Shown piece after piece: positions 8,594-13,317 of a DNA stretch of 13,317 nucleotides. The notes under the pieces were generated by a model. It had not been told where the DNA came from. It searched no databases and saw nothing but the letters and a program-made list of their open reading frames with translations. Source of the stretch: Nitrospinae bacterium RIFCSPLOWO2_12_FULL_45_22 (GTDB lineage: Bacteria; 2-12-FULL-45-22). Position numbers and translations under genes: made by a program. The stretch spans positions 1 through 13,317 of the forward strand of contig MHDQ01000056.1 in assembly GCA_001803565.1 (NCBI GenBank), given 5' to 3'. Position 1 is the stretch's first letter. Each line of letters starts with the position of its first letter.

Positions 8594-9721
8594 TCATCCC
8601 TTATTTTCTCCTTTTAGTAATCTCAGACTCCCTCTTCTCCCGCTAGCAATTCTAGGCAGATTATTAACGGCCTTCCTCATATCTTCTCTACCAACAGCAG
8701 TATATACATTCATGGTTATCCCTATATCAGAATGTCCGGCTAGCATCTGTGCTATTTTAGGATGGGCACCGGTTTGGGCTAGCCATGATAGGTAGGTTTT
8801 CCTCAAGGTATGCAGGTCTATCTTTGGCAGGGTGGCCTTTTTCAGGGCAGTATTAAGAGAGGTTCGGATATCCCGGTAAGGCTTTCCTTCGGGGTTGCAG
8901 AAAACATAGTACCTTTGGTGAGGTTCCCTGGAAAGGTATCTATTTAGCCTCGGGTGGGGATAATGTTCTTTTAAATACCTTAACTCTTCCAGGGCATCGT
9001 CATTTAACTCAACAATACGGTCCCTTTTCCCCTTGGTATTAATAACCTCTATATAAGCCTTATCAAAATCTATATGCTCAAATTTGAGATTAAATAATTC
9101 TTCCTTTCTCAGACCGGTTAGGACATCTATAAAGATTATTGCCTTTAAATGTGCAGGGCTGACCTCCAGGAACCTCTGAAACTCTTCAGGGGTTAGATAC
9201 TTTGCTACCGGCTTATTTGTCTTGAAAAATTTAACCCCATTAAAAGGGGATACATCAATATAACCATCCCCTACTGCCTTGTTCAATATCCCCCTGAAAT
9301 AGCGCAATTCAAGGTTTATACTGTTCAGAGATAAAGGTTTGCCATCCCTTTTTCTACCAGCATTAAGCCGCTGGTTGATATAGTCCTCAATGTCTTTTTT
9401 CCCCATTAGGCTTAAAGGAATATTCCCCAGTATTGGCCTAAATTCTTCTATTGCCTGTAATTCTGAACTAATGGTATTCTTGGATTTCCTGACCAGGTAG
9501 GTGTTAATGTATTCATCCAGGTAAAAGCTAAACAACAGCTTATCATCTCTCAGGTGGAACTTACGATTAAGCTTTTGTCTGGCTATCTCCTGGGATACCT
9601 GTTTTAGGGCCTTCTCTGCTTCTCTATTGGTACAATAACCCAGGTTAGCTATATCTTTGGTGCCTTCACGTATGAGGTACTTGATACCTTTCTTGGTGTG
9701 GTAACTTCTAAGGTAGGCCAT
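8594..9721 (-). CDS. Tyrosine-type site-specific recombinase (phage/ICE-like integrase)
   Basis: This enzyme family cuts and rejoins DNA through a Tyr-linked intermediate and integrates elements, often at tRNA genes. From the preferred ATG at 9721 it has 375 residues. It has an N-terminal arm-binding part beginning MAYLRSYHTKKG, a core-binding SAM-like domain (about 55-150), and a catalytic domain. All six catalytic residues are visible: Arg205 (TGLRKEE), Lys230 (NTKGKR), His304 and Arg307 (LHTLRK), His330 (AGHSD) and Tyr340 (MNVYTAV). A GTG at 9817 would add 32 residues, but the ATG at 9721 has GGGAGGG upstream at good spacing and begins the conserved region. The gene runs toward tRNA-Leu(CAG), about 100 nt away, which supports its role in inserting this region. 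Confidence 0.93.
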   Translation of the reverse strand: MAYLRSYHTKKGIKYLIREGTKDIANLGYCTNREAEKALKQVSQEIARQKLNRKFHLRDDKLLFSFYLDEYINTYLVRKSKNTISSELQAIEEFRPILGNIPLSLMGKKDIEDYINQRLNAGRKRDGKPLSLNSINLELRYFRGILNKAVGDGYIDVSPFNGVKFFKTNKPVAKYLTPEEFQRFLEVSPAHLKAIIFIDVLTGLRKEELFNLKFEHIDFDKAYIEVINTKGKRDRIVELNDDALEELRYLKEHYPHPRLNRYLSREPHQRYYVFCNPEGKPYRDIRTSLNTALKKATLPKIDLHTLRKTYLSWLAQTGAHPKIAQMLAGHSDIGITMNVYTAVGREDMRKAVNNLPRIASGRRGSLRLLKGENKG

Positions 9722-9750
9722 GTCTTTACCCTCCCTAGTTAGGGTTGATA

Positions 9751-9791
9751 CCCTGGTATTGAGGAGCAAAGGGGAAAGATAGCTACCAGGG
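9751..9791 (-). other. Hairpin just upstream of the integrase start
   Basis: CCCTGGTA (9751-9758) and TACCAGGG (9784-9791) form a perfect 8-bp inverted repeat around a 25-nt spacer. Read on the - strand this lies 30-70 nt before the integrase ATG at 9721. It could be an operator or a leader hairpin limiting integrase expression. The role is inferred. Confidence 0.35.
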
Positions 9792-9881
9792 TTTAACCTA
9801 CCCTTATCGGGGTGCACATCCCTATCCCCTTTGTATTGCCAGACTATAAGGTATCCCCACTACTCAGTATACCAACTACCC

Positions 9882-10385
9882 TTACTTATCTGAAGCATAA
9901 GGCGCTACAATAGTGAATGAATAATACTTCTTGTTACCTAGCCCCGGCACCTGATAGACCTTCATACCTTCTTTAATATCACGAGCAAATACCGGTATTA
10001 GCTCTATTAGTCTGCCTTTAGCTAGTGCCAGTAGTATATTAATAAATACCTCATTATCCGCTATCCCCAGGGCCTCCTGGAATAGTGATAGGGGATAGAT
10101 ATTCTCAGGGAGATTCAATCGCTGTTTTTCTACTATCTCTTTTATCTTCTCTATAACCGGCTCTAGGGGTTTTATCTCAATAGGTTCTTCCTCATCATCA
10201 AAAAACTCTTCCATATTTATCTTGAGGGCTTTGGCTATCCGCCTTAATGGTTCTGCCTTAGGTTCCCTTTTTCCAGCCTCATAAGAGGCTATGGTCATTA
10301 AATGGAGACCGGTTATCTTAGCCAGGCCCTTCCGGGTAAGTCCTTTTTCTGCCCTGAGTTTTTTTAATTTTTCTTTGTTAAACAT
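9882..10385 (-). CDS. XRE-family helix-turn-helix transcriptional regulator
   Basis: The product has 167 residues. Residues about 4-62 form a Cro/cI-type HTH: LKKLRAEKGLTRKGLAKITG, then HLMTIASYEAGKREPKAEPLRRIAKALKI. The remaining 100 residues (from EEPIEIKPLEPVIEKI) do not match a domain I recognise; they may serve dimerisation or sensing. The start ATG at 10385 has AGGA about 9 nt upstream. The gene is convergent with tRNA-Leu, lies upstream of the integrase on the same strand, and is divergent from the toxin-antitoxin pair. A 17-bp palindrome over its own promoter suggests autorepression. It may also control integrase or the divergent genes, as in phage- and ICE-type elements. Confidence 0.88.
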   Translation of the reverse strand: MFNKEKLKKLRAEKGLTRKGLAKITGLHLMTIASYEAGKREPKAEPLRRIAKALKINMEEFFDDEEEPIEIKPLEPVIEKIKEIVEKQRLNLPENIYPLSLFQEALGIADNEVFINILLALAKGRLIELIPVFARDIKEGMKVYQVPGLGNKKYYSFTIVAPYASDK

Positions 10386-10530: not shown

Positions 10531-10824
10531 ATGCCTAAAGCGCTGTATTTAAAGGTACCGGATGCGCTTATGAGCCGGATACAATATTACCGGTTTACTA
10601 ATATGAAGGAGACAAAGACAGAGGCTATAACAGAGCTTTTGGAAAGGGCCCTAGATGAGTTTGAAGCCAGGCAGAAAGGATTGAGGATTGAGCCTATTGT
10701 CCCAGGAGATCCCGATTATGCTATTATCAAAGCCAGGAAGGACGAGTCTATTGAAGAGCTTCCCTGGGATGAGGTAGAGAAAAGACTAAAGAGGATTAAG
10801 GCCGCCAGAAAGGTTAGGAAGTGA
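10531..10824 (+). CDS. Type II antitoxin, ribbon-helix-helix type
   Basis: This is a 97-residue charged protein. The N-terminal half looks like a ribbon-helix-helix DNA-binding domain: a short strand (ALYLKVPDALMSRIQ) followed by TEAITELLERALDEFEARQK. The C-terminal tail (IEELPWDEVEKRLKRIKAARKVRK) is the amphipathic type that wraps around a toxin. Its stop overlaps the start of a RelE/ParE-like gene by 4 nt, the classic antitoxin-first arrangement. It has a near-perfect ribosome site, AGGAGGTGAT, at 10516-10525. An overlapping upstream palindrome suggests autorepression. The sequence family (RelB, ParD or CopG) cannot be fixed by eye. Confidence 0.8.
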   Translation: MPKALYLKVPDALMSRIQYYRFTNMKETKTEAITELLERALDEFEARQKGLRIEPIVPGDPDYAIIKARKDESIEELPWDEVEKRLKRIKAARKVRK

Positions 10825-11081
10825 GGCTTAGGATAAAGAAGAGTGCCAAGAAGGAGCTACTTTCTATAGATGCCGATGATGCCTTTTTTGCTGTTATTAG
10901 AGTTATCCTGGCTTTAGCCGAAGAACCCAGGCCCAGAGGTTATGATAAAGTTGAGGGAAGAGAGGGACATTTTAGGGTCTGGGCAGGTAGAGACTATAGG
11001 GTAATCTATTCCATTGATACAGAAAACCGGGAAGTGATTATTGAAGGGGTCAGAAAGAAGGATAAAAAGACATATAAATGA
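10821..11081 (+). CDS. RelE/ParE-superfamily toxin
   Basis: This is an 86-residue basic protein of the RelE/ParE fold. MRLRIKKSAKKELLSI matches the N-terminal strand and helix. The typical core is EEPRPRGYDKVEGREGHFRVWAGRDYRVIYSID, with a C-terminal strand EVIIEGVRKKDKKTYK. Family members either cut mRNA on the ribosome (RelE-like) or inhibit gyrase (ParE-like). The basic C-terminus and the FRVWAGRDYRVIY block look more RelE-like, but the target is not proven. The start is GTG at 10821, overlapping the antitoxin stop (GTGA), so the two are translationally coupled. The pair probably stabilises the integrated element. Confidence 0.87.
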   Translation: MRLRIKKSAKKELLSIDADDAFFAVIRVILALAEEPRPRGYDKVEGREGHFRVWAGRDYRVIYSIDTENREVIIEGVRKKDKKTYK

Positions 11082-11190: not shown

Positions 11191-11219
11191 TTGACAGGGT
11201 TTCTGAGGTTTGATATAAA
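11191..11219 (+). promoter_or_regulatory. Strong predicted sigma70 promoter for the propeptide/subtilase operon
   Basis: TTGACA (11191-11196), a 17-nt spacer and TATAAA (11214-11219) make a near-consensus promoter, the best in the window. Transcription would start about 11226, leaving an untranslated leader of about 210 nt before the ATG at 11440. Confidence 0.65.
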
Positions 11220-11439: not shown

Positions 11440-11862
11440 ATGAAAAAGAAAATCCTCTCGGTTTCCACACTATATTTTTTATTTTTCCCATACCTGTTTG
11501 TATCTTTGCTATTTGCTCAACAACTTAATACCCCTCCAGAAGGGTTAGAGAAGCGAAAACCTCCAAAGGAATTAAAGCTCACTTCAATTCTTTATGAGCT
11601 TGCGATATCACCAAACCGGGAAAATTTTGCAACGGAACACAACATTCCTCTACATGAAGGGAGGGTAAGAGTATTCATCTACCTAGATCCTGCTTCTAGA
11701 AAATCAGAGAGAGAAAGCTTGGGTAAAGGTTACAATATAGAGGTTGAGAAACAATCCAATGACTTATTAAGGGCCTTGGTTCCCATAGATGAGATGATCC
11801 AACTGTCAAAGGAATCTATTGTATGGTCAATTACCCTTCCTGATAGACCCACAAAACCATAA
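11440..11862 (+). CDS. Secreted free-standing subtilase propeptide-like protein
   Basis: This is a 140-residue protein with a Sec signal peptide: MKKK, then a hydrophobic stretch about 10-25, with cleavage probably after LLFA. The mature part resembles the propeptide of the protease encoded 13 nt downstream. Shared blocks in order are KLTSILYEL with KLESVLTEL; RVRVFIYL with KVTVFLI; NDLLRALVPIDEMIQLSKE with NVLKADVPINRLQQIADK; and the end motif SITLPDRPTKP with YIRLPDRPVPL. It stops three residues after the LPDRP motif, just before where the protease's mature domain would begin. Subtilase propeptides act as intramolecular chaperones and inhibitors. A free one could inhibit or help fold the neighbour, and this role is inferred. 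The ribosome site is weak. Confidence 0.72.
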   Translation: MKKKILSVSTLYFLFFPYLFVSLLFAQQLNTPPEGLEKRKPPKELKLTSILYELAISPNRENFATEHNIPLHEGRVRVFIYLDPASRKSERESLGKGYNIEVEKQSNDLLRALVPIDEMIQLSKESIVWSITLPDRPTKP

Positions 11863-11875
11863 GGAAAAGAAAGCA

Positions 11876-13317
11876 GTGTACAGAAAGAAATATGACGGGT
11901 CGTTAGCAATATTTAACTTAATGATAATCCTGATGCTAACTATATTCTATGCATCAGTTGCTGAGGCTCAAAGATTGGACATATTTCCAGAAAAAGCAAG
12001 GATACACCCTAAGCTAGAGAGCGTTCTGACAGAGTTACAAGAAGAATATGAAAAAAATACAGTGACAGGACAAGAATTTGCGATGAAGAGAGATATAAGA
12101 GTCAAAGACCAGGATAAAGTCACGGTATTTTTAATCTCAGAGATTGGGCAAACTACTGATGCAATTGATAAAAAATTACTCCGTGCCTATGGGGCTAATA
12201 TTATCAAAAGTGCTGATAATGTATTAAAGGCAGATGTCCCGATTAATAGGCTACAACAGATAGCTGATAAGGTAAAAGGGATCTCATATATTAGACTGCC
12301 AGACAGACCCGTACCATTAACTCAGAGCCAGGGGGTGAGTTTGACCGGGGCTTCCTCTTATCAATCTGCAGGGTATACCGGTTCAGGGGTAAAGGTTGCG
12401 GTAATAGATGGGGATTTTGCAGGTTTATCTTCTACCATATCCAACGGTGAACTACCGAGCAATGTGGTAATGGTTGATTGTACCGGGGTAAGCTGTATAT
12501 CAACGACTTTTCCTTCAGAGACAGGGAAACATGGAACAGGTGTTGCTGAGGTGGTTTACGACATGGCCCCGGGGGCCCAGCTTTACCTTATAAAGATGGA
12601 TGACAGGTTGGATTTGAAGGATGCTAAAGACTACTGTATCAGCAATGGGATTAAAATAATAAATCACTCTGTCGGATGGAATAATACTAATTTTTATAGC
12701 GGGGAGTGTTATAACGTCAACCCGGTCTGCACAGCCGATAATGCCTATGCAAATGGTATTTTGTGGGTCAATGCAATAGGAAATGATGCAAAGAGGCATT
12801 ATGAGGCCACTTTTACAGATTCTGATGGTGATGGGTGGCATAATATATCAGCTAATTATGAAACGATAAATATTTCAGCAACGGCTGGTGAGACCATTAA
12901 AGTCGCTCTCACATGGAATGCCTGGCCCACTACCAATCAGGATTATGACCTCTATCTTTATGATAGCTCTTTGAACAGTTCTGTTGCACGGAGCGAGAAT
13001 CTTCAGACTGGGACGCAATCGCCAACCGAATCAATTTCTTATTCTGTTCCTAGTACCGGCACTTACTATCTTTCTATCTATAAGTACAGTGCTACATCAA
13101 ATCATCAACTGGAGGTATACAGTGCTAACCATGACTTAACGCCAGCGGTTGCCTCGAGTAGTTTCTCAAATCCTGCAGATGCCAGAGGTGTAATGGCTGT
13201 TGGCGCCATTGACTACTGGTATTGGACAACCGGGCCGCAGGAGTCCTTTAGTTCCCAAGGCCCTACCAATGATGGAAGGACTAAGCCAGAGATCAGTGGG
13301 CCAGATTATGTTTCAAA
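11876..13317 (+). CDS. Secreted subtilisin-like (S8) serine protease, 3' end outside window
   Basis: The frame is open to the window edge (480 codons seen). The start is GTG at 11876 with AAGGA 10 nt upstream. A signal peptide is clear: MYRKK, a hydrophobic stretch, then ASVAEA before QRLD. Residues about 35-145 form a propeptide ending LPDRP (141-145). The catalytic domain then shows Asp178 (VAVIDGDF), His219 (GKHGTGVAEV), NHSVGW and the oxyanion Asn303 (AIGNDA). An inserted beta-rich region of about 115 residues follows, with DSDGDG, DYDLYLYDSS and GTYYLSIYKYS, resembling a PPC-type domain. The fold resumes at SFSNPADARGVMAVGAI and SFSSQGPTNDGRTKPEISGP. The catalytic Ser motif (GTSxA) would lie just beyond the edge. 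It is probably exported to the periplasm or outside and cotranscribed with the 11440 gene. Confidence 0.9.
   Translation, partial: MYRKKYDGSLAIFNLMIILMLTIFYASVAEAQRLDIFPEKARIHPKLESVLTELQEEYEKNTVTGQEFAMKRDIRVKDQDKVTVFLISEIGQTTDAIDKKLLRAYGANIIKSADNVLKADVPINRLQQIADKVKGISYIRLPDRPVPLTQSQGVSLTGASSYQSAGYTGSGVKVAVIDGDFAGLSSTISNGELPSNVVMVDCTGVSCISTTFPSETGKHGTGVAEVVYDMAPGAQLYLIKMDDRLDLKDAKDYCISNGIKIINHSVGWNNTNFYSGECYNVNPVCTADNAYANGILWVNAIGNDAKRHYEATFTDSDGDGWHNISANYETINISATAGETIKVALTWNAWPTTNQDYDLYLYDSSLNSSVARSENLQTGTQSPTESISYSVPSTGTYYLSIYKYSATSNHQLEVYSANHDLTPAVASSSFSNPADARGVMAVGAIDYWYWTTGPQESFSSQGPTNDGRTKPEISGPDYVS

Follow-up and report, generated by a model that had tools for sequence, protein, structure and literature searches.

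The small secreted protein encoded directly ahead of a subtilase gene at the end of the window is probably a dedicated, trans-acting, propeptide-like inhibitor of that subtilase, and it may help the enzyme to fold as well. The window is the whole stretch of DNA analysed, 13,317 nucleotides, and amounts to one entire contig, C56, in a draft genome of 3.67 Mb. We read the small protein as a trans-acting inhibitor because it shares the predicted fold and the end point of a propeptide, carries a likely export signal as its neighbour does, and has the protease next door. A subtilase propeptide first folds its enzyme and afterwards, bound as a product, inhibits it; eukaryotic propeptide-like proteins that stand alone inhibit subtilases potently (PMC6993865). 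In the following, such separately encoded proteins are called companions.

The gene pair and its second copy in the genome

The features of the pair are collected in Table 1. The two reading frames and the spacing between them are as the preliminary description gave them, with the protease read from a GTG codon and its frame running off the end of the contig. The small protein is a gene of its own. It has its own stop codon and a hydrophobic N-terminus, it lies 13 nt ahead of the protease start, and the same separate-gene arrangement recurs in a paralogous pair. Both proteins had been said to carry signal peptides; a hydrophobic segment is indeed present at the start of each, and the signal peptides themselves are putative. 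The protease matches PF00082 (E = 9e-14) and shows the Asp and His motifs, the Ser position falling beyond the contig end. A search of the assembly for the 3′ end of the gene found no continuation.

Table 1. Positions in the window of the features belonging to the gene pair.
Feature	Position	Strand	Basis or remark
Small separate protein of propeptide type (140 aa), its hydrophobic N-terminus probably a signal peptide	11440–11862	+	ORF, profile, model
S8 subtilase, secreted, with Peptidase_S8 and PPC-type inserted domain; the contig stops short of its catalytic Ser	11876–13315	+	
Own N-terminal propeptide of the protease	11969–12319	+	
Region of the small protein with AlphaFold model, pLDDT 89, pTM 0.77	11518–11859	+	
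13-nt gap with Shine-Dalgarno-like GGAAAAG, then the protease GTG start	11863–11878	+	
Promoter-like TTGACA-N17-TATAAA, present in the paralogous locus too	11191–11219	+	omitted by consensus scan

The pair had also been credited with one strong shared promoter. A promoter-like TTGACA-N17-TATAAA element does precede it and has a counterpart at the corresponding position of the paralogous locus. A consensus promoter scan reported none in this region, the TATAAA lacking the last T that the scan requires. A single strong promoter serving both genes is plausible.

The paralogous pair is on contig C139 of the same genome. Its companion is 72% and its protease 86% identical to those of the window, and the two genes are separated by an 11-nt gap with an AGGAG Shine-Dalgarno-like site. 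Among the sampled relatives, only one other genome belongs to the order of the window genome. The dN/dS between the two genomic companion copies is about 0.26 and both frames are intact, which argues for purifying selection and bears out the separately maintained role that had been proposed. Both contigs break off at one and the same position in the protease gene, which fits a repeat that interrupted the assembly. Within that gene, the propeptide DNA (window 12006–12320) is 96% identical between the copies, while the flanks are at 63–89% and the signal region at 63%; judged from these sequences, gene conversion in the protease gene is likely.

In both loci, ParE/RelE-like toxin genes lie between a regulator and the protease pair (window 10531–11081; L006 2538–2810). 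The regulator is of the XRE type and is found at four places in the genome (window 8594–10385; L006 3183–4898; L200 2315–4045; L201 74–553), and a tyrosine integrase adjoins it at three of the four. Two of the places adjoin protease pairs, and the other two adjoin a gene that encodes a large, secreted repeat protein. The regulator and integrase may form a cassette, mobile or switching, with a link to secreted proteins.

Relation to the protease propeptide and predicted fold

The small protein is 27–28% identical to the protease propeptide of its own genome (tblastn within that genome, E = 5.8e-5). The block-by-block similarity that had been noticed by eye holds, with KLxSxLxEL, V-VF, VPI and LPDRP aligned between the two. 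Against a propeptide profile made from protease relatives, with all sequences of the window genome left out, the small protein scores 30.5 bits, whereas none of 2,000 shuffles exceeds 6.6. Companions and propeptides usually have an Arg ahead of the Pro-rich tail, where the window copies have Thr or Ser. The Pfam model Inhibitor_I9 (PF05922) has no match in the small protein, in the protease propeptide or anywhere in the genome, and Pfam and NCBIfam hold no family for the companions. A PDB sequence search with a profile of the short companions gave unconvincing matches only.

The point at which the small protein stops can be compared to the cleavage site of the propeptide. In a sequence alignment, residue 5 of subtilisin BPN′ falls on protease residue 151, and so the cut is expected near 146/147. 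Protease residue 148 aligns with companion residue 140, its last. By sequence, the C-terminus of the companion lies about 2 residues beyond the expected cleavage point, in agreement with the claim that it ends close to where the propeptide does.

The AlphaFold model of the small protein has the element order strand-helix-strand-strand-helix-strand, which is the layout given for subtilase propeptides (PMC6993865). Foldseek matches the model to the propeptides of subtilisin and Tk-subtilisin and to the CspB prodomain with probabilities of 0.98–1.0 and E values that are weak, 0.01 at best. The top-ranked match is the CspB prodomain of Clostridium perfringens (PDB 4i0w). That prodomain is made in cis, as part of its protease, with no separate gene. 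VIA-align puts pro-Tk-SP first (Z = 8.9), followed by the Tk propeptide (8.2) and the inhibitor POIA1 (7.4); all Z values of the model are below 9, and unrelated ferredoxin-like folds such as ribosomal S6 reach about 5.9. Taken together, AlphaFold, Foldseek and VIA-align predict the subtilase-propeptide (I9-like) fold for the small protein, which is the structural similarity by which the preliminary description proposed that its idea be checked. In VIA-align the model's C-terminal residue falls on the chain ends of the known structures (69 in Tk, 77 in BPN′, 76 in POIA1 and 152 in PCSK9), the confidence at the last residues of the model being low, about 67. In the model, then, the C-terminus would end at P1, next to the cut, so that the tail could fill the cleft.

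Companions in other genomes

Scanning for the protease family turned up 62 loci. At eight of these, a secreted ORF of 244–290 aa lies directly upstream of the protease, in records labelled Bipolaricaulota, Acetothermia or unnamed bacterium. The C-terminal ~100 aa of these ORFs are propeptide-like and stop just past an R-P-x-P motif. This second phylum was taken as Bipolaricaulota, and 100 of its genomes were searched for companions. Matches appear in 69 of them; two genomes were removed for having matches only in protease-sized frames, leaving 67 with stand-alone companions. The companions fall into two size classes, ~250–300 aa and ~130–180 aa, the latter like the window protein. The long ones have an additional N-terminal domain of ~160 aa, for which a search with the whole-protein model gave no clear PDB match.

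Counting both copies of the window genome, there are 84 non-redundant companions. All but six are directly beside an S8 protease gene (78 of 84), 74 before it and 4 after it, and the gap to the downstream protease for the 74 is mostly −4 to +120 nt. The four placed after the protease are short, and their readable signals show lipobox-like ends of the lipoprotein type. Adjacency in both gene orders points to a functional link between companion and protease. The end point is also a shared property: 83 of the 84 terminate 0–5 residues past the last residue matched by the profile. Every protease checked beside a companion (76 of 76) has kept its own propeptide, so the companion is extra. Protease relatives with a complete sequence mostly show the Asp/His/Ser motifs, many with the GTS motif of the catalytic Ser. 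The pairing in related genomes, suggested as another check, has thus been found in a second, diverged pair in the same genome and in dozens in a distant phylum.

Two loci can be compared directly. At L116 (936–1412) a companion lies between lysS-like and MeaB-like genes with no protease, and at L126 a protease sits between the lysS-like gene and the companion; this looks like a loss of the protease at L116. In the proteases of the second phylum (L018 3467–8098 and similar loci), the propeptide is preceded by ~180 additional N-terminal residues that resemble part of a solute-binding protein; these proteases also carry long PKD and other C-terminal domains.

Among 386 genomes searched as other lineages, further stand-alone companions were found only in three genomes of the second phylum and once in G233. 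In G233 (L181 1441–2646, minus strand), a gene lying 60 nt ahead of an S8 protease gene encodes a caspase-like (Peptidase_C14) domain joined to a C-terminus of propeptide type; of the five genomes of that phylum, one has this fusion. Upstream of the protease, no profile-matching companion was found in most relatives outside the second phylum (L012, L020, L022–L026 and L028–L031) or at L011, inside it. A contig scan of other genomes with the small protein alone as query found nothing, as did a scan of viral contigs with the protease alignment. A 243-aa frame of G188 (L190) was considered as a stand-alone companion and rejected, being part of an interrupted protease gene. At L190 1–1836, unrelated coding sequence separates the propeptide of the G188 protease relative from its catalytic part.

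Proposed role and alternatives

We asked how the companions are related to one another and to the propeptides, and whether the window copies could be local products. In a tree of 101 sequences on a short alignment of 106 columns, the 45 protease propeptides are on one side and the 56 companions on the other (SH-aLRT 86), and the window copies group next to the long companions (SH-aLRT 99). That the window protein is a non-functional leftover of a propeptide duplication is a very improbable reading. It has in its favour that the duplicated propeptide adjoins its source and that joining the window copies to their own propeptides formally survives the AU test (p = 0.078), but it has to contend with two diverged copies of intact frame under the dN/dS given above, with dozens of other genomes that show this arrangement, and with the grouping of the window copies with other companions, and we regard it as largely refuted by conservation. 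A functional protein that arose by local duplication, independently of the companions of the second phylum and convergent with them, is a better contender, although still rather unlikely. The AU tests on a separate local origin (p = 0.078 and 0.075) are above the 5% level of rejection, and a profile of the two window companions prefers their own protease propeptide (30.0 bits) to the long companions (at most 20.3). Against this, forcing the window copies onto their own propeptides costs about 20 log-likelihood units relative to the free tree, and a profile of the second-phylum companions prefers the window proteins (31–34 bits) to any protease propeptide (at most 23). A single old origin of the companions is favoured by these sequence comparisons, though not proven.

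The preliminary description offered a dedicated inhibitor or folding factor, and we infer much the same, with the weight on inhibition. The small protein would be exported together with the protease, being presumably co-expressed with it, and would fold as an I9-like propeptide domain. On the mature catalytic domain it would then dock in the place vacated by the protease's own propeptide, and its proline-rich C-terminal tail would enter the substrate cleft in the manner of a bound product. Proteolysis that comes too early or in the wrong place would be blocked in this way at the cell envelope. The small protein may also help the protease to fold; since the cis propeptide has been retained, inhibition should be the larger part of its role.

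The opposite emphasis, in which the companion is mainly an intermolecular chaperone and inhibition a by-product, as with ORF2 for the Aeromonas sobria protease ASP, seems unlikely to us. It has a bacterial precedent in that same adjacent gene, whose product places its C-terminal tail in the active site (PMC5638518), and the solution structure of ORF2 (2mk4) is a weak Foldseek match of the small-protein model (probability 0.47). But ASP has no propeptide, whereas all the checked proteases beside companions have one, and a second chaperone is not obviously needed. We would give still less weight to a structural or targeting partner that keeps the mature protease in a stable envelope complex, its extra domains mattering more than inhibition. 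The ~160-aa domain of the long companions, the lipoprotein-like character of the four short ones after the protease and the one fusion to a caspase-like domain all speak for such a partner, but the window copy has neither the extra domain nor a lipobox cysteine.

Known stand-alone I9-like proteins are SUB1-ProM of Plasmodium, POIA1, the yeast proteinase B inhibitor, Arabidopsis SPI-1 and Toxoplasma MIC5 (PMC6993865). SUB1-ProM is like the window protein in being a small separate gene product with a propeptide fold, predicted in our case; its gene, too, has subtilase genes for neighbours, and it is a strong inhibitor of one of the encoded enzymes (PMC6993865). That group is eukaryotic, whereas the present pair is bacterial, has an operon-like adjacency and recurs through one phylum, with inhibition as its expected activity. 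ASP/ORF2 resembles the present pair in consisting of a bacterial S8 subtilase and an adjacent gene for a secreted partner. The tail of ORF2 occupies the ASP active site (PMC5638518), a placement that here is proposed. ASP lacks a propeptide of its own and ORF2 is encoded downstream (PMC5638518), whereas the present protease keeps its propeptide and the partner is mostly upstream; the present partner, unlike ORF2, is recognisably related to the propeptide of its protease. Among open-licence papers, a literature search found no such bacterial pairs described beyond ASP/ORF2. The separate-propeptide pair looks like a new bacterial variant of the stand-alone propeptide-like inhibitors.

Prokaryotes have few proteinaceous protease inhibitors (PMC6993865). 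It is conceivable, and we suggest it tentatively, that the pairs represent a widespread bacterial two-gene system in which a secreted subtilase is accompanied by a dedicated separate propeptide, soluble or lipid-anchored, acting as an immunity-like inhibitor that protects the producer's envelope, apart from the cis propeptide that serves in folding. A bacterial subtilase with a cis propeptide and a conserved trans copy is a natural set-up in which to separate the folding and inhibiting roles of propeptides, and dozens of pairs are usable for tests of specificity. Read as companions, a set of proteins outside the Pfam and NCBIfam families would gain a likely function.
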